Position numbers and translations under genes: made by a program. This document shows, one piece after another, positions 1,478-31,700 of a stretch of DNA of 48,514 bases; position 1 is the stretch's first letter; each line of letters opens with the position of its first letter. The DNA comes from Candidatus Dadabacteria bacterium (GTDB taxonomy: Bacteria > Desulfobacterota_D > UBA1144 > Nemesobacterales > Nemesobacteraceae). The stretch is from contig JAPOYE010000110.1 of assembly GCA_026706695.1 (NCBI GenBank), positions 1 through 48,514 of the forward strand, written 5' to 3'. Under the pieces are notes generated by a model. The model did no database searches, was not told the origin of the DNA, and was given only the letters and a program-made list of their open reading frames with translations.

Positions 1478-3205
1478 ATGCCCGCGGACTCGATCCTTAA
1501 ACACGCCTTCATACTCTGTCTTGTTTTATCCGTCGCACTCTCTTCCGCCCGCGCGGAGCCCGGTTATTCAAATAAAAGTACGGCGGAATCCACATCTTTT
1601 CGAAACGGGATGGTTGTATCCGAGGAGCAGATCGCTACCCACATCGGGCTCTCCGTACTCAAGGAAGGCGGAAACGCCGTTGATGCAGCGGTCGCCGTCG
1701 GATTCGCCCTTGCGGTCACTCACCCGAGAGCCGGAAACCTCGGGGGCGGCGGATTCATGCTGGTCCATCTAAGCAAAACGGGACGGACAGTCGCCATAGA
1801 TTACAGGGAAAAAGCCCCGCTTGGGGCCACGCGCAACATGTTCCTCGATGAGACCGGGGAGGTTGACATGGAACGGGCACGGCACAGCATCTATTCCTGC
1901 GGGGTTTCGGGAACGGTCGCGGGGCTTTCGCTGGCCCTTGAAAAATACGGAACCATGCCGCTTGAAAAGGTTCTTGCGCCGGCAATAAGGCTCGCGGAGG
2001 AAGGGTTCGCGGTTACGCCGGAGTTCAGGAAATCGCTCCTGAAGGCAAAGTGGCGCTTGAAAAAATCAGGCGAGAGCATGGAGATTTTTTTCAAAAACAA
2101 CGGAGAGCCGCCCCGGGAGGGAGAAATCCTCAGGCAGAAAAACCTTGCGTGGAGCCTCAAGGAGATAAGCAAAAACGGTCCCGGGGCGTTTTACAGGGGG
2201 GCAATAGCGAAAAAAATCACGGCTTACATGAAAAAAGAGGGAGGCCTCATAACCGAACGGGACCTTGCCTCTTACGAGGCTCTCATAAGAGAACCGGTGA
2301 CCGGAAGCTACAGGGACTACAGCATCCACTCGATGCCGCCTCCAAGCTCGGGTGGGGTCCATCTTATCCAGATGCTTAACATTCTCGAGCGCTATCCCCT
2401 CTCGCAATACGGCCATAACTCCGCACGCTACGTCCATATTCTCTCGGAAACCATGAAGCTCGCCTATGCGGACAGATCAAAACATCTGGGCGACCCGGAC
2501 TTCTCCCCCGTTCCCACAGCACACCTTGTCTCAAAACAGTACGCAAAACGCCAGGAAGTCCGCATCAATCCCCAAAAAGCGACTCCGAGCAGATACGTAA
2601 AGCCCGGCTCACCAGTCCCCGCCGGAGGCACTGACACCACCCACTTCACCGTAGCCGACAGATTCGGAAACGTGGTTTCAAACACATACACGCTTAATTT
2701 CACCTACGGCTCGGGCCTCGCTGTGCCGGGAACAGGGATCCTGCTGAACAACGAAATGGATGATTTCTCGGCAAAGCCCGGAGCGCCGAACGCATACGGC
2801 CTAATCGGCGGTGAAAAAAATTCCATTGCCCCCGGTAAAAGAATGCTGAGTTCCATGACCCCGACCATTGTGTTTAACGACGAAAAGCTTTTTCTAGCGA
2901 CGGGAGGCAAGGGGGGAAGCAGAATAATAACCTCAGTGCTTCAGGTCATCCTGAACGTGATTGACCATAAAATGAGCATACGGGAGGCCGCATCGGCCCC
3001 GAGGATACACCACCAGTGGCTCCCCGACACCCTGTACATAGAAAGAGAAGCAGGGGAAGATCTGGAGGCCGGGTTGCGGAAAAAAGGATACGAAGTGAAA
3101 AGAACCGGTCCGATGGGAAGTACGCAGAGCGTGGCGAGGATCAACGGGCTTTTTCACGGAGCGACCGATCCCAGGCACCCGGGAGGGCTGGCGCAGGGGT
3201 ACTGA
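1478..3205 (+). CDS. ggt: gamma-glutamyltransferase (glutathione hydrolase)
   Basis: Exported Ntn-hydrolase that removes or transfers the gamma-glutamyl group of glutathione in the periplasm. A signal peptide covers about residues 1-26, ending near SSARA. The large-subunit substrate arginine is in DYREKAPLGA (R110). The self-cleavage and nucleophile threonine is the first Thr of TTHFTV (T387), where the precursor would split into large and small subunits. The small subunit keeps SNTYTLNFTYGSG, GILLNNEMDDFS and the oxyanion-type SSMTPTIV block. At 575 aa it is a normal full-length GGT. It follows the ECF42-like gene by 20 bases and precedes the autotransporter esterase by about 116 bases. The family is clear; the physiological substrate is not shown. 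Confidence 0.96.
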   Translation: MPADSILKHAFILCLVLSVALSSARAEPGYSNKSTAESTSFRNGMVVSEEQIATHIGLSVLKEGGNAVDAAVAVGFALAVTHPRAGNLGGGGFMLVHLSKTGRTVAIDYREKAPLGATRNMFLDETGEVDMERARHSIYSCGVSGTVAGLSLALEKYGTMPLEKVLAPAIRLAEEGFAVTPEFRKSLLKAKWRLKKSGESMEIFFKNNGEPPREGEILRQKNLAWSLKEISKNGPGAFYRGAIAKKITAYMKKEGGLITERDLASYEALIREPVTGSYRDYSIHSMPPPSSGGVHLIQMLNILERYPLSQYGHNSARYVHILSETMKLAYADRSKHLGDPDFSPVPTAHLVSKQYAKRQEVRINPQKATPSRYVKPGSPVPAGGTDTTHFTVADRFGNVVSNTYTLNFTYGSGLAVPGTGILLNNEMDDFSAKPGAPNAYGLIGGEKNSIAPGKRMLSSMTPTIVFNDEKLFLATGGKGGSRIITSVLQVILNVIDHKMSIREAASAPRIHHQWLPDTLYIEREAGEDLEAGLRKKGYEVKRTGPMGSTQSVARINGLFHGATDPRHPGGLAQGY

Positions 3206-3321
3206 TCCGCATGCTGCGCCCGGAAAAGCAAATCGCCCCTAACCCGTCTTTCGCCGTCACGTAGCGGACCCTGAGCATGGTAGGATTAACTTTGAAAACA
3301 GAATTCATTGGAGGGCTCTTA

Positions 3322-5184
3322 ATGTTCCGATGTCCGCACTTTCTCCTTGCTGTTACGATCCTTTTAGGGCTTGTCAGCGCCGCCCGGGCCCAAACTTTCA
3401 ATTCTGTCGTCGTATTCGGTGACAGCCTGAGTGATTCTGGGAATATCGCCCAGATCAGCGGACTTCCGCCCGGCACGAGCTTCACCACGAATCCAGATCC
3501 GGTCTGGGCCGAAATCGTGGCCCGGGCTTTCGGGGCATCCGGAACCAATTCGCTCGCCGGAGGGACGAACTACGCATGGGGCGGCGCCTGCGTAGACCCA
3601 AACGTCGCTTGTGAAAACCCTGTGCCTACAACGCAGCAACAGATTAGCCAGCATCTCTCCGGAGGAAATGCCGACCCGGATACGCTTTACATGATCTGGG
3701 GCGGCGCAAACGATATAAGCGCCATCGCCGGGGAAAATCAGTCTGACGTCCAAGGCGCCCTCAATGGCGCCCTGAAAGCGGCAGAAGCGTACGTAGATCA
3801 AATCCGAGGTCTCCAGAACGCCGGCGCGCGTTACGTCGTGGTGCTCAGCGTGCCCGACGCCGGCAAAACCATAAACGCTCAGCGTGACGGGCCTGTAGCC
3901 GCGGCTGGACTCTCCGCTCTAGTCCAGGTCTATAATGAAGCTCTGGATACGGGTCTCGGATCTCTTGAGCACGGAATCATTCCCGTGAATGTCTCTGTCC
4001 TGTTGGACGAGATGACTGAAAATCCTGGAAACTACGGATTCACCAACATTGATGAGATAGCTTGTACTCCCGGTTCCAACCCCCTGCGCCCTAGCGGGGG
4101 ACTGGAGTCGCTTGTCTGCGGTCCGGCCGATTCAGGCTATCTTTCACCTCCCAAAACTGATGAAACTTATTTTTTCGCGGACGGCTCCCATCCCAGTGGC
4201 CTGGGCCATGCGGCAGTCGCAAGTATGGTAATTTCCACTCTTGAGGCCCCGGTTCAGGTATCGCTTGGAGGGGAAGCAGGAGTAGAAGTTGCCAGGGCGC
4301 ACCGCGACGCCGTATTTACGGAGCGGATGCTTGACCTCGGGTTTAATCGCTCGGCCGGGAAATGGCACAGCTACGCGAGGGGCCTTACAGGCAGATACAA
4401 TCTCGAATCCCCGCCGCGTCTGGGCAAAACGCAGGCCGAAATGCATGTGCTCACCCTGGGCACCGACTACCGCATTGGGGATGGGCTTTACCTGGGCGCG
4501 GCATTGAGCCTTGGGAACCACGACAATGATCTCTCGGGCGCAAGCATTGACAGCATCGTTGTGACAGGCTCGCTGCACGGCACCCTTATCTACGACGTTT
4601 TCTACCTGAGCGGCGCCTTTAACGGAGGCAGGACATCTATTGACATCAACCGCTCGATCCGGCTCGGAGCGGCGCTACGCACGGAGCACGGCTCCACAAG
4701 CTCCTATCAGTTCGGAACCGATGTCGAATTGGGCTGGGTTTCGAGCACATCCGAGAGGTACAGACATAATCTGTTTCTGGGACTCGGGTGGCTTAATCAG
4801 AAAATCGACGGCTACAGTGAAATCGGCTCCACGTCCACATCGATGAACTTCTCGGACTTTGAACGCGACTCCCTATTTGCGAGAGCGGGTTATCAGTTCA
4901 AAGGAAATCTAGGTCTAGGCGAAAGGCTGTTACCATACCTCCGCGTCTCTTACGAGAGAGAGCTTAACGACGATTCCGTTCCGGTCACCGCGGGATCGAA
5001 CACCATGTCCGGCCGCTTTACTCTCCCGGGTTTCAAACCGCCGAATGAATGGATAAACGCCGACGGCGGCCTTACCGCCAACATCGGCAGCCGGACGAGA
5101 ACTTTCGTCGGCTACTCCGGGCGCTTTGGCAACGACTCCAACCTCAGCCATGAGTTCAGTCTCGGAGTGCGCATGACATTCTAG
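3322..5184 (+). CDS. GDSL-family esterase/lipase autotransporter (EstA-like)
   Basis: Predicted surface esterase made of an N-terminal SGNH/GDSL hydrolase passenger and a C-terminal autotransporter barrel. ATG at 3322 is chosen over the more upstream in-frame start because GGAGGG lies just before it and it begins a clean signal peptide ending near AARAQ. Catalytic blocks are VVFGDSLSDSG (Ser35), WGGAND (Asn130) and FFADGSHPSGLGH (Asp287, His290). From about residue 350 the protein becomes alternating amphipathic strands and ends in the C-terminal Phe motif (GVRMTF) expected for BAM-dependent insertion. Length 620 aa fits EstA/EstP-type autotransporters. The stop lies 7 bases from the convergent nadA stop with no obvious intrinsic terminator. 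Confidence 0.93.
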   Translation: MFRCPHFLLAVTILLGLVSAARAQTFNSVVVFGDSLSDSGNIAQISGLPPGTSFTTNPDPVWAEIVARAFGASGTNSLAGGTNYAWGGACVDPNVACENPVPTTQQQISQHLSGGNADPDTLYMIWGGANDISAIAGENQSDVQGALNGALKAAEAYVDQIRGLQNAGARYVVVLSVPDAGKTINAQRDGPVAAAGLSALVQVYNEALDTGLGSLEHGIIPVNVSVLLDEMTENPGNYGFTNIDEIACTPGSNPLRPSGGLESLVCGPADSGYLSPPKTDETYFFADGSHPSGLGHAAVASMVISTLEAPVQVSLGGEAGVEVARAHRDAVFTERMLDLGFNRSAGKWHSYARGLTGRYNLESPPRLGKTQAEMHVLTLGTDYRIGDGLYLGAALSLGNHDNDLSGASIDSIVVTGSLHGTLIYDVFYLSGAFNGGRTSIDINRSIRLGAALRTEHGSTSSYQFGTDVELGWVSSTSERYRHNLFLGLGWLNQKIDGYSEIGSTSTSMNFSDFERDSLFARAGYQFKGNLGLGERLLPYLRVSYERELNDDSVPVTAGSNTMSGRFTLPGFKPPNEWINADGGLTANIGSRTRTFVGYSGRFGNDSNLSHEFSLGVRMTF

Positions 5185-28797: not shown

Positions 28798-29928
28798 CTA
28801 GACCCGAAATTTCTTCGAACACCGGGTCAGGTTCTGGTTTCCGTCCCGCGTGACCAAGACCACGTCCTCTATCCTGACTCCCCCGAGACGCTCGTAGTAA
28901 AGACCGGGCTCTACAGTAACAACATTTCCCTCCTTAAGAATCTCGTTTCCGGGACCGATTCTCGGCGGCTCATGGATGTCAAGCCCCAGACCGTGGCCCG
29001 TGGAATGTATGAACCCTTCGGGGCTTCCGGAACCCGAAGCCGTGGTAGGAAACCCCCGTTCCGTGAAGAAATCTATTACCGCGCCGTGCACGTCCTTCGA
29101 TCTCACGCCGTCTTTTATCATGGAGAGCGCGATTTTCTGACCGCGCAAAACGGTGTCGTACATTCTCAGAAGTTCAGCCGAGGGCTCGCCCTTAACAACC
29201 GTCCTCGTCATGTCGCCGAAGTAGCCGTTCTCCTGGGATCTCGGGAAAATGTCGATCACCACCGGCCACCCGGCCTTAAGAGGTCCTGAGCCCTTCTCGT
29301 GGGGCATGGAGCCCTGAACCCCTCCGGCCACTATGGTGTTTGAAGCCAGATACCCCCGTTCGGCAAGATAGGAGCTTATGGCGGAACGCACTATCTCGGA
29401 GGTAAGGGGCTTGCCGTCGCGGTAAAGCACGGAACCCTTCACCACTGAATCCGATATAATTGAAATAGCAATCCTCATGGCCCATGCCGTAGCGTAAAGC
29501 GCCTTCTTTATGAGTGAAACTTCCGCCGGGGATTTCCTGAGGCGCCCGGGAAAAAGAAAATCCGTTTTCGCGGTCCTGACGAAAAAACCGGCTCCCCGGA
29601 GCGCGTCGGCATAGGAAACCGGAAAAAACCTCTGGACAACCAGGCTCCTTACCCCTCTTTCCCTGAGAATTGCCGCGGCCACCTCGGCAATACCGGGCCT
29701 TTTTCTCTTGCCACCGCGAATCTTGGCAACCCACTCCCCAAGTGAGATGACCCGCTCTACTCTTGCCTCTTTTTTCCCCCGCTCAAGCTCAAGGTCGCTG
29801 AGAACCAGTGTTCCTTCCCCGTCGTGTTCAAAAAAAATAACAGGGTCCGGAACGAAAAAGCCGGTTCTGTGGTAAAGGTCAGAGTTGCGCTCGCTCGAAT
29901 CGATTATAAGGTAGGCCGTTTTGCTCAC
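28798..29928 (-). CDS. M24-family metallopeptidase (Xaa-Pro aminopeptidase-like)
   Basis: Cytoplasmic dinuclear-metal aminopeptidase of the pita-bread fold, probably removing N-terminal residues before proline. Metal ligands: Asp in VVIDIFPRS, Asp in FGDMTRTV, His in HSTGHGLGLDIHEPP, Glu in VTVEPGLYY and Glu in VRIEDVVLV. The N-terminal creatinase-like domain is short. GTG at 29928 (MSKTAYLIID, 376 aa) is preferred to the frame's first start at 29976, whose leader reads into the promoter. A minus-strand TATAGT ends about 7 bases before this GTG, implying a leaderless or nearly leaderless mRNA. Confidence 0.9.
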   Translation of the reverse strand: MSKTAYLIIDSSERNSDLYHRTGFFVPDPVIFFEHDGEGTLVLSDLELERGKKEARVERVISLGEWVAKIRGGKRKRPGIAEVAAAILRERGVRSLVVQRFFPVSYADALRGAGFFVRTAKTDFLFPGRLRKSPAEVSLIKKALYATAWAMRIAISIISDSVVKGSVLYRDGKPLTSEIVRSAISSYLAERGYLASNTIVAGGVQGSMPHEKGSGPLKAGWPVVIDIFPRSQENGYFGDMTRTVVKGEPSAELLRMYDTVLRGQKIALSMIKDGVRSKDVHGAVIDFFTERGFPTTASGSGSPEGFIHSTGHGLGLDIHEPPRIGPGNEILKEGNVVTVEPGLYYERLGGVRIEDVVLVTRDGNQNLTRCSKKFRV

Positions 29929-29978
29929 GCCGAAAACTATACAATAAACCTGGGCAGCGGGGCAAACTAGCGCCACTG

Positions 29979-29994
29979 CTTACCGCTTACGCTT
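29979..29994. repeat. left 16-bp direct repeat of the AT-rich insert
   Basis: CTTACCGCTTACGCTT, identical to 31284-31299. The flanking bases differ on both sides, so the match is exactly 16 bp. It contains an internal near-duplication (CTTACCG / CTTACGC). Confidence 0.75.
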
Positions 29995-30011
29995 GTTAGC
30001 AATAAACTAAT

Positions 30012-30059
30012 TGTCCGGTCTTAGATTTTTGGTTGCAGGAGGGATCTACGAACCGGACA
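30012..30059. other. long-loop inverted repeat TGTCCGGT/ACCGGACA
   Basis: TGTCCGGT (30012-30019) and ACCGGACA (30052-30059) form a perfect 8-bp stem enclosing 32 bases that include GCAGGAGGGA. No T-run follows. It lies 17 bases inside the left direct repeat and might be an element end or protein-binding site; nothing further can be said. Confidence 0.35.
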
Positions 30060-30095
30060 GAGTTACTGCTTAACTGACTTCTTCTGAACAAATGC

Positions 30096-30124
30096 TTGAC
30101 AATGCACATTCATGTTAGTTATAC
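30096..30124 (+). promoter_or_regulatory. consensus sigma-70 promoter inside the AT-rich insert
   Basis: TTGACA (30096-30101), 17-base spacer, TTATAC (30119-30124): a near-perfect housekeeping promoter. The predicted start is near 30131. The downstream RNA would contain a hairpin (30159-30184) and then a 6-codon ORF; the lipoprotein gene starts about 300 bases further on. Confidence 0.65.
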
Positions 30125-30158
30125 CGACGTACGTACCTAGACCGACCTGAACACCATC

Positions 30159-30184
30159 CGTAGATGAGGAAACCACCATCTACG
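30159..30184 (+). other. leader hairpin
   Basis: CGTAGATG (30159-30166) and CATCTACG (30177-30184) form a perfect 8-bp stem with a 10-base loop, about 28 bases after the predicted transcription start. A GAGG ribosome-site-like motif begins at its last base, so folding could mask the start of the 6-codon ORF that follows. Confidence 0.4.
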
Positions 30185-30192
30185 AGGAATTT

Positions 30193-30213
30193 ATGGAAGA
30201 TAAAGAAAGCTAG
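30193..30213 (+). CDS. possible 6-codon leader ORF (MEDKES)
   Basis: ATG GAA GAT AAA GAA AGC TAG lies 5 bases after GAGG and just past a perfect hairpin downstream of a consensus promoter. It is too short for statistical support. It is listed because promoter, hairpin, ribosome site and ORF line up in order, as in leader-peptide control, but it may be chance. Confidence 0.2.
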   Translation: MEDKES

Positions 30214-30432
30214 CATTGCGTTCTATTGCACATATTGATATAGTGAGGAATGGGCGGTAGTCAAATATGCTAGTAGGCTATCTGACCAGATACTAACATT
30301 CACCATTCACCCTTCGCATCTACTGCCCCGTTTGATATGGGCGATGAGAGAAACTTTGCTATTTATTGAATTCTTTATCCTGTGTTTAGTTGAGGCAATG
30401 GTTTTGGCTTACTGTTAATGGAGGTTTTTATT

Positions 30433-30987
30433 GTGAAAAGATTTTTGCTTTTATTGACGGCTTTCTTTGTCATAGGTTTGGCTTCTTGTGATGACGATAA
30501 TGGCTCAGACATGGAACCTGAGCCCACGACAATAAAGATGAAGGGTTTCTTTAACAGCGTTGATGAAAACAACATGGATGACTGTCAGAGTGAGGACCTG
30601 AATTTGATAGTGGAAGATGAGGTAGTTGTTGGCAGTTCTAATTTTGCTGCATCAGGGGAAACGGGCGAAGTCTTTGATGAAGCGGTGTTCGGATATATAG
30701 GTATAAAGACTCAAAACCGTATAGCCGCCTCTTACGTAACGGCAACGAGAGAAGGGGAACTTGTTAATCCCGGAGTTCTCTATCTTAGGAAAAGAGGGGA
30801 TTTATATGTTGGGTTTTGGGGTGGAGGAGCTACACGTCCGGAAGGTAATCCGTCCGTTGTTTGTCCGTACATAATGGTTCCGCAGGAGATGGTCGAGGAA
30901 GGTGGCTGCGAAGCTGAAGCTTATGCAGAGCATCTTAAAAATGAGGATGGTTCAATAAAAGCCTGTGTAATGGCCCCAAATAGCTAA
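30433..30987 (+). CDS. small predicted lipoprotein, unknown function
   Basis: A 184-aa exported protein with a lipoprotein signal: MKRFLLLLTAFFVIGLASC, where LASC is the lipobox and Cys19 the acylated residue, followed by an acidic linker (DDDNGSDMEPEP). Asp at +2 would favour inner-membrane retention by the E. coli rule, which may not apply here. GTG at 30433 is chosen over the upstream ATG at 30418 because GGAGG (30420-30424) sits 8 bases before it. The mature domain has paired cysteines (DDCQSEDL, VVCPY, GGCEAEA, KACVM) and beta-rich stretches. No family was recognised. Base composition is more AT-rich than neighbouring core genes, suggesting acquisition. Confidence 0.8.
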   Translation: MKRFLLLLTAFFVIGLASCDDDNGSDMEPEPTTIKMKGFFNSVDENNMDDCQSEDLNLIVEDEVVVGSSNFAASGETGEVFDEAVFGYIGIKTQNRIAASYVTATREGELVNPGVLYLRKRGDLYVGFWGGGATRPEGNPSVVCPYIMVPQEMVEEGGCEAEAYAEHLKNEDGSIKACVMAPNS

Positions 30988-30995
30988 TCCGTTAA

Positions 30996-31211
30996 ATGAG
31001 TGACGGACCTGTAATTACGATAACAGTGGAAATTCCCGAAACTGTTAGTCAACTTCCTCCTGGCGATGACGATCAGGAATTTGAAATATGTCTATATAAT
31101 AATGGAAGGCAGCTTCGACCAAATCTTGTAGCGGCTTCACGCCGTCTGAATGGCTTCGTAGATATGCTTGACCATATGCGTTCGTTTTTTCACGTTTCTT
31201 ACGATTCATAA
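30996..31211 (+). CDS. possible small protein (71 aa), competing with an antisense ORF
   Basis: ORF starting 8 bases after the lipoprotein stop. Its N-terminal part (MSDGPVITITVEIPETV) looks strand-forming and its middle is acidic (PPGDDDQEFEICLY). It has no Shine-Dalgarno before ATG 30996. Its second half is antisense to a minus-strand ORF with a strong ribosome site, so at most one of the two is likely real. Not recognised. Confidence 0.25.
   Translation: MSDGPVITITVEIPETVSQLPPGDDDQEFEICLYNNGRQLRPNLVAASRRLNGFVDMLDHMRSFFHVSYDS
31045..31209 (-). CDS. possible small basic protein (54 aa) with consensus ribosome site
   Basis: Minus-strand ORF beginning MNRKKREKTNAYGQAYLRS. AAGGAGG (complement of 31218-31224) lies 8 bases before its ATG, the strongest ribosome site in this insert. 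The N-terminus is strongly basic and the rest is helical with aromatic residues (VEAAFHYYIDIFQIPD). No family recognised; it could be a fragment of a DNA-binding or mobility protein. Orientation is opposite to the lipoprotein gene, reading out from the right repeat. Confidence 0.4.
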   Translation of the reverse strand: MNRKKREKTNAYGQAYLRSHSDGVKPLQDLVEAAFHYYIDIFQIPDRHRQEEVD

Positions 31212-31283
31212 TTAAAACCTCCTTGAACTTCATTTGAGTTCATTGACTTAAAGACCTAATTACCATTTAATTTGTTTCCTACA

Positions 31284-31299
31284 CTTACCGCTTACGCTT
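31284..31299. repeat. right 16-bp direct repeat of the AT-rich insert
   Basis: CTTACCGCTTACGCTT, identical to 29979-29994. Its last base is the first base of the TTGACA box upstream of the Fe-S carrier gene. Confidence 0.75.
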
Positions 31300-31327
31300 T
31301 GACAATCGTCCCCGGCAGATGTATTTT
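31299..31327 (+). promoter_or_regulatory. sigma-70 promoter for the A-type Fe-S carrier gene
   Basis: TTGACA (31299-31304), 17-base spacer, TATTTT (31322-31327). The predicted start is near 31334, giving a leader of about 43 bases that includes GAGGAGG before ATG 31377. Confidence 0.6.
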
Positions 31328-31376: not shown

Positions 31377-31700
31377 ATGTTTTCCGTAACTCCCAAAGCC
31401 GTAGATGAAATAAAAAGGCTGCTTGCCGAAGACGACATCGAAAATGCGTTTCTCAGGGTAAGGATAGTGCCCGGGGGCTGTTCCGGGTTTTCCTACGAGA
31501 TGGGATTTGACGACGAGACCGATGAAGGAGACAACTTGATCGAGTCCGACGGCATAAAGGTCGCTATCGACGAGATCAGCTACACCTATCTCGACGGATC
31601 GGTTCTTGATTTCAAGGATGGTCTTGACGGAAAGGGCTTTGCAATCGAAAACCCTAACGCGACCGGTTCCTGCGGCTGCGGACAGTCTTTCACCGCATAG
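31377..31700 (+). CDS. erpA: A-type iron-sulfur cluster carrier (ErpA/IscA family)
   Basis: Carries Fe-S clusters to client proteins such as LipA and complex I. The three invariant cysteines are Cys35 in VPGGCSGFSYEMGF and Cys99/Cys101 in TGSCGCGQSF. Length 107 aa is typical. The ribosome site GAGGAGG and a consensus promoter lie upstream. No suf or isc genes flank it, so it is a stand-alone carrier; the ErpA name rather than IscA is a best guess. Many Fe-S enzymes in this window (NadA, LipA, NuoE, NuoI) could be its clients. Confidence 0.9.
   Translation: MFSVTPKAVDEIKRLLAEDDIENAFLRVRIVPGGCSGFSYEMGFDDETDEGDNLIESDGIKVAIDEISYTYLDGSVLDFKDGLDGKGFAIENPNATGSCGCGQSFTA

Follow-up and report, generated by a model that had tools for sequence, protein, structure and literature searches.

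A probable transposase-less IS1202-family element carrying a lipoprotein gene beside the erpA promoter in Candidatus Dadabacteria

The window, a 48,514-bp contig of a Candidatus Dadabacteria bacterium (GenBank assembly GCA_026706695.1, contig JAPOYE010000110.1), contains a 1290-bp segment (29994-31283) that is very probably a transposase-less derivative of an insertion sequence (IS) of the IS1202 family (ISNCY, the group with long target-site duplications). It carries a lipoprotein gene with its own promoter and leader. Statistically across the genus, related elements appear to choose sites where the duplicated 15-17 bp directly precede the -35 hexamer of a sigma70-type promoter, which would be left intact. 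Here the promoter is that of erpA.

The insert is delimited by the 16-mer CTTACCGCTTACGCTT, found exactly at 29979-29994 and 31284-31299. A scan of the window with up to three mismatches returns only these two sites (0.33 expected by chance), and the 1.87-Mb draft genome holds no further exact copies and one site with two mismatches; the sequence is no dispersed motif. Gene order is an M24 peptidase gene on the minus strand (28798-29976, Pfam Peptidase_M24, syntenic in the genus), the insert with its lipoprotein ORF, an erpA-like gene for an Fe-S carrier on the plus strand (31377-31700, Pfam Fe-S_biosyn PF01521) and an accA/accD-like gene. The insert has a GC content of 41.8%, and the 5 kb on either side have 55.2% and 53.1%. 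The original prediction is borne out in these respects: it had described a 16-mer present once at each edge of a stretch of differing base composition that lacks a recognisable recombinase, and the lipoprotein gene, promoter-like sequences and hairpins that it placed inside are all there. The competing small ORFs that it also listed fared less well, since the two at the right carry frameshifts in the congeners G009 and G012 and hence are not conserved. One of these, on the minus strand at 31045-31233, has a ribosome-binding site (RBS) that is almost the same as the one before the lipoprotein gene (inverted repeat 30414-30437 and 31205-31228); this ORF is probably a decayed gene start. An RNA element in the insert was ruled out by the lack of any Rfam match, and two weak matches to bioA/bioF (G008 and G010) were put down to chance, being short and in opposite orientations with E of 0.05-0.6.

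The interval between the M24 peptidase gene and erpA was compared with its counterparts in 13 congeners. In 11 of them it is about 100-130 bp long, and the repeat is present once, in diverged form (GCTTACCGCTTACaCTT in G001 and CTTACCcGCTTACGCTT in G013 are examples). The same insert, at 98.8% identity, is present in the other two, G009 and G012, which are the closest relatives. Since 11 of 13 congeners have an empty, single-copy site and the two closest relatives a filled one, the segment 29979-31299 is a genuine insertion bounded by a direct repeat, absent from some relatives as had been foreseen. In G009 and G012 an IS110-family element (RNA-guided transposase type, NF033542) stands near the right border of the insert, at a position equivalent to that between 31279 and 31280 of the window; it is seen at 2593-4213 of locus L056 (G009:C52) and at contig ends of G012, where it breaks the assembly. 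IS110-type copies at other loci (L067, L072) are placed in C-runs, between TTCTACCCCCC and AGTAC.

The outer ends of the inserted DNA, TGTTAG... at 29994 and ...CCTACA at 31283, form imperfect terminal inverted repeats like those of the IS1202 family, whose elements begin with TGT and end with ACA, have an internal repeat close to either terminus and encode a transposase with a glutamine seven residues after the catalytic glutamate (PMC10132070). The left end, TGTTAGCAATAAACTAATTGTCCGGTC (29994-30021, plus strand, terminal inverted repeat and internal repeat), matches 19 of 20 positions of the left end of multicopy elements in the genus. The right end (31264-31283) reads inward as TGTAGGAAACAAATTAAATG on the minus strand, with ACA last on the plus strand, and matches genus right ends at 16 of 20. 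Its closest form is TGTAGGAAGTAAATTAAATTG in G009; right ends in G010 and G008 are also close. These are the two best end matches among the 919 TGT-anchored sites of the window, and on resampling no sequence out of 1000 reached the score that the left end has with its reference, or the score of the right end when two right-end references were used. The left border also matches a repeated sequence found at contig ends of several congeners. The two ends differ in subgroup: the left is like subgroup 1 (G1), and the right, which is degenerate, is like subgroup 2 (G2).

Elsewhere in the genus the left ends, TGTTAGTAATAAACTAATTGACCGG..., are followed by an RBS and then by a transposase that begins MNRTELLQ. 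The best-preserved of these relatives score 339.7 bits against the NCBIfam ISNCY model NF033594 (cut-off 250), and by our reading against the published signature (PMC10132070) they have the glutamine seven residues after the catalytic glutamate (E256/Q263), so that the autonomous relatives have the DDE transposase of the IS1202 type. The window copy keeps, after the left end, the RBS AGGAGGG and the first codons of this gene (30037-30069, plus strand), with ACG at 30048-30050 as start codon, homology to MNRTELL... and then a stop; identity is about 85% to a reference made of the left end and 5' transposase sequence of intact-type copies. There is no complete transposase gene in the insert, which is therefore a derivative of the IS1202 family and not a full, autonomous member. 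Thus what had been proposed as a mobile unit of undescribed type has the borders of a known family, and the repeat, at first read as att sites or deletion endpoints, is better taken as a target-site duplication (TSD). An intact transposase was not found in the insert's own genome (G000) either. A second 5' remnant of an IS1202-type transposase occurs there (L061 2097-3824, G000:C105:6096-7823), flanked by an IS1595-like transposase and a further lipoprotein gene. IS1202-type elements are multicopy in the genus, and many copies are decayed; a scan of the genome contigs for further elements added one distant locus and no more.

Because the element starts with TGT at 29994 and ends with ACA at 31283, the strict repeat is 15 bp and not 16. 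The left copy, CTTACCGCTTACGCT (29979-29993), occurs singly in the empty sites of the 11 congeners, and the right copy (31284-31298) matches it exactly. The sixteenth base of the repeat, a T, is a coincidence, being on the left the first base of the element and on the right the first base of TTGACA. Alternatively, the TSD was 16 bp and one base has been lost in the window. Related copies have duplications of the same size. In G005 identical flanks allowed the ends of three IS copies, separated by contig breaks, to be matched up again; these flanks are GTGTTTCCGTGCGGGG, CTATTTTCAGGATGAT and ACAGTATTTTTTCCCA, each exactly 16 bp. In G009 the pair C54/C52 has an exact 15-bp TSD, CGATAGCGGCCATAC. 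Related copies in the genus thus have three TSDs of 16 bp and one of 15 bp, beside a strict 15 bp (16 if a base was lost) in the window, compared with more than 15 bp (16-28 bp) published for this branch of the family (PMC10132070). Relatives outside the genus (Vibrio, Roseibium, Methylosinus, Enterococcus, Klebsiella, Mesorhizobium and a Gracilibacteraceae MAG) provided no usable long TSD. The only one seen there is 5 bp (GAATG), around an ISNCY element on a Vibrio campbellii plasmid (NZ_CP026317, L247 1929-3452) that adjoins a dif-like sequence, as reported for the short-TSD branch.

The gene at 30433-30987 (plus strand) lies between both IS ends, where the passenger of a mobile insertion cassette or transporter IS is found. 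Its ORF is intact, has a GTG start (an alternative ATG is at 30418) and encodes a secreted lipoprotein with the lipobox LASC. No match to Pfam or NCBIfam was obtained, and in a search of 61 genomes the family occurred in this genus only, where it is multicopy and in variable positions. Compared with a G003 homologue (68% identity) dN/dS is 0.16, which shows purifying selection on the family; the copies of the three filled genomes differ too little for selection to be judged from them. Upstream, at 30073-30150 on the plus strand, is a promoter and leader with -35 TTGACA at 30096-30101, a -10-like sequence near 30119-30125 and the conserved TACGTACCTAGACCGACC, matched in G009, G001 and G012. The same dispersed leader (CTTAACTGA, TTGACA and TACGTACCTAGACCGACC in this order, then a small hairpin) precedes various lipoprotein and surface-protein genes of the genus, at L067, L072, L074, L075, L078 and L079 besides the window, and may mark a co-regulated gene set. 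At L079 (G001:C7, near 1501-1565) a 13-bp IS1202-type end, TGTAGAGAGTAAG, is fused straight to this leader, a hint that IS ends and leaders recombine.

How the lipoprotein gene came to lie between the ends is less certain than the nature of the ends. An ordinary IS1202-type element may have inserted at the erpA promoter and had its transposase gene replaced later by a lipoprotein unit that was never cargo, a history that is quite possible if somewhat short of probable. A scrap of the 5' end of the transposase gene persists at the left end, many IS1202 copies in the genus have decayed, and recombination could have involved the leader, which is a dispersed unit. Lipoprotein homologues also occur elsewhere without IS ends: those of G003 and G002 (about 68% identity) have none visible in their flanks, and the 14 genomes contain no second copy of the ends-plus-lipoprotein unit, which is known from one locus only. 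Against later replacement, the TSD is still perfect, and a G1-type left end with a G2-type right end is more simply explained if a hybrid unit was inserted whole. That the ends come from different IS subgroups suggests that such a hybrid did move as a whole.

The right copy of the TSD abuts a sigma70-type promoter on the plus strand, TTGACA-N17-TATTTT (31299-31327), the sole such match in the window and conserved upstream of erpA throughout the genus. The insertion has thus left unbroken a promoter that looks functional. This arrangement recurs at other sites. When 34 sites are read outward from the ends of the elements, exact TTGACA stands at offset 16 in seven flanks, at offset 17 in two and at all other offsets together four times; this count puts the window at offset 16 by including one base of the ACA end, its strict offset being 15. 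When the window and one possible duplicate are removed, TTG is found at offset 16 or 17 in 13 of 32 sites (background 1.5; binomial P 8e-10) and exact TTGACA in seven (background 0.07; P 7e-13), and in sites with both flanks known TTG is there in 6 of 7 (P 1e-6), all these P values treating sites as independent. The combined -35/-10 score is highest at offset 16, 7.8 standard deviations over other offsets (promoter score z = 7.8 and 6.2), and -10-like hexamers 16-17 bp past the box exceed the null in all draws (0/2000). Some of the data behind these tests are also those in which the rule was first noticed, and the later-fetched test consists of three G009 right-end flanks. All three fit, with TTGACA or TTGACG at offset 15 and TTGCTA at 16, and each has a -10-like hexamer after the box (spacing read by eye). 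The side of the box differs with subgroup. In subgroup 1 it adjoins the left end. In subgroup 2 it adjoins the right end in G009 and G010, G013_C19 being the one exception, and the box of the window, whose right end resembles subgroup 2, is on the right. In two species the promoter of one and the same Met-tRNA-like gene (anticodon cat, identified by eye) is preceded by an IS1202-type left end (G002:C5:15935, L065, and G013:C8:17272, L068), which reflects either one old insertion or more than one targeting of this promoter.

TTGACA could also come to lie near the ends if the elements simply preferred DNA that is intergenic, AT-rich or contains promoters, with no fixed distance involved, and intergenic insertions survive better in any case. 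The genomes are drafts that often give one flank per site, and many of these one-flank sites have no box, which speaks for such a preference. Enrichment at offsets 15-17 only argues against it, as does the count of exact TTGACA, seven compared with 0.07 per offset pair elsewhere in the same flanks, and a preference of this kind is an improbable explanation. It is rather likely, to judge from these flanks, that the long-TSD IS1202 transposase picks sigma70 promoters, reading the -35 box or promoter-bound RNA polymerase and cutting a 15-17 bp window just upstream. No target was found for long-TSD members in the published description of the family (PMC10132070), and in the open-access literature we found no description of promoter-directed insertion sequences or of such targeting for the IS1202 family.

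Two other origins of the direct repeat have very little in their favor. Site-specific integration, whether at a tyrosine recombinase att core, as an integron cassette or as an integrated plasmid or phage remnant, would fit an exact repeat on both sides of an insert with few genes and an empty site in relatives; with no recombinase or integrase in the insert, no tRNA nearby, no Rfam match, IS1202 terminal inverted repeats where the inserted DNA starts and ends and a repeat as long as the TSDs of related copies, it is highly unlikely. Direct repeats this long can mediate deletion, and the repeat could be chance or deletion-endpoint microhomology around an ancestral interval lost in other genomes, but with 11 divergent congeners empty, only a close trio filled, IS ends at the borders and an AT-rich insert this hardly deserves credence.

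For the favored reading, transposition of an IS1202-type derivative, the following origin can be proposed. A transposase supplied by an intact copy elsewhere would have engaged the two ends and transferred them to the erpA promoter, attaching them to target strands offset by 15 bp, and gap repair would then have produced the direct repeat. The lipoprotein gene may, with less certainty, already have been between the ends when the unit moved, as in a mobile insertion cassette or 'transporter IS'. By analogy with the short-TSD branch and its XerC sites, the site would likely have been chosen through recognition of promoter DNA or of the RNA polymerase bound to it.

A puzzling direct repeat can in this way be explained as a transposition event, and a concrete target rule is obtained for an IS group that had no reported one (PMC10132070). 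Should the rule hold, a single family would have two fixed-distance targets, XerC sites for the short-TSD branch and sigma70 promoters for the long-TSD branch, which would suggest that IS1202-family transposases read protein-DNA complexes. If true, it would be a counterpart, in bacteria, of transposons that dock on the transcription machinery, with lipoprotein-type cargo set beside promoters that stay unbroken. The rule would also be useful for understanding how cargo genes arrive at promoters in streamlined genomes.

The known elements closest to the insert are those of the IS1202 long-TSD group (IS1202, ISTde1, ISCARN53/62/63 and ISVbsp4; PMC10132070). They share with it TGT...ACA ends, imperfect terminal inverted repeats and an internal repeat near the end, and with its autonomous relatives a DDE transposase with the glutamine at E+7; the TSDs are of similar size, about 16 bp, although the strict 15 bp of the window lies just below the published range. 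The insert differs in having no transposase and carrying a lipoprotein gene, and the elements of this genus differ in abutting -35 boxes. The ISAjo2 group, the short-TSD branch, has the same transposase family and also a fixed distance from a protein-bound site, inserting 5 bp from XerC at dif/pdif with a TSD of 3-5 bp (PMC10132070), in contrast to the 15-17 bp TSD and -35 box in this genus. Mobile insertion cassettes (MIC, without a transposase) and transporter IS (tIS, with one) likewise enclose a passenger gene between IS ends, whereas the insert is known from a single locus, by sequence alone, and has ends from two IS subgroups. MITEs and decayed solo ends are also transposase-less with IS ends and a TSD; they are a few hundred non-coding bases, in contrast to 1290 bp with an intact gene. 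The element family itself is already known, and what is new here is the passenger with its place beside a promoter, together with the proposed promoter-abutting target rule.
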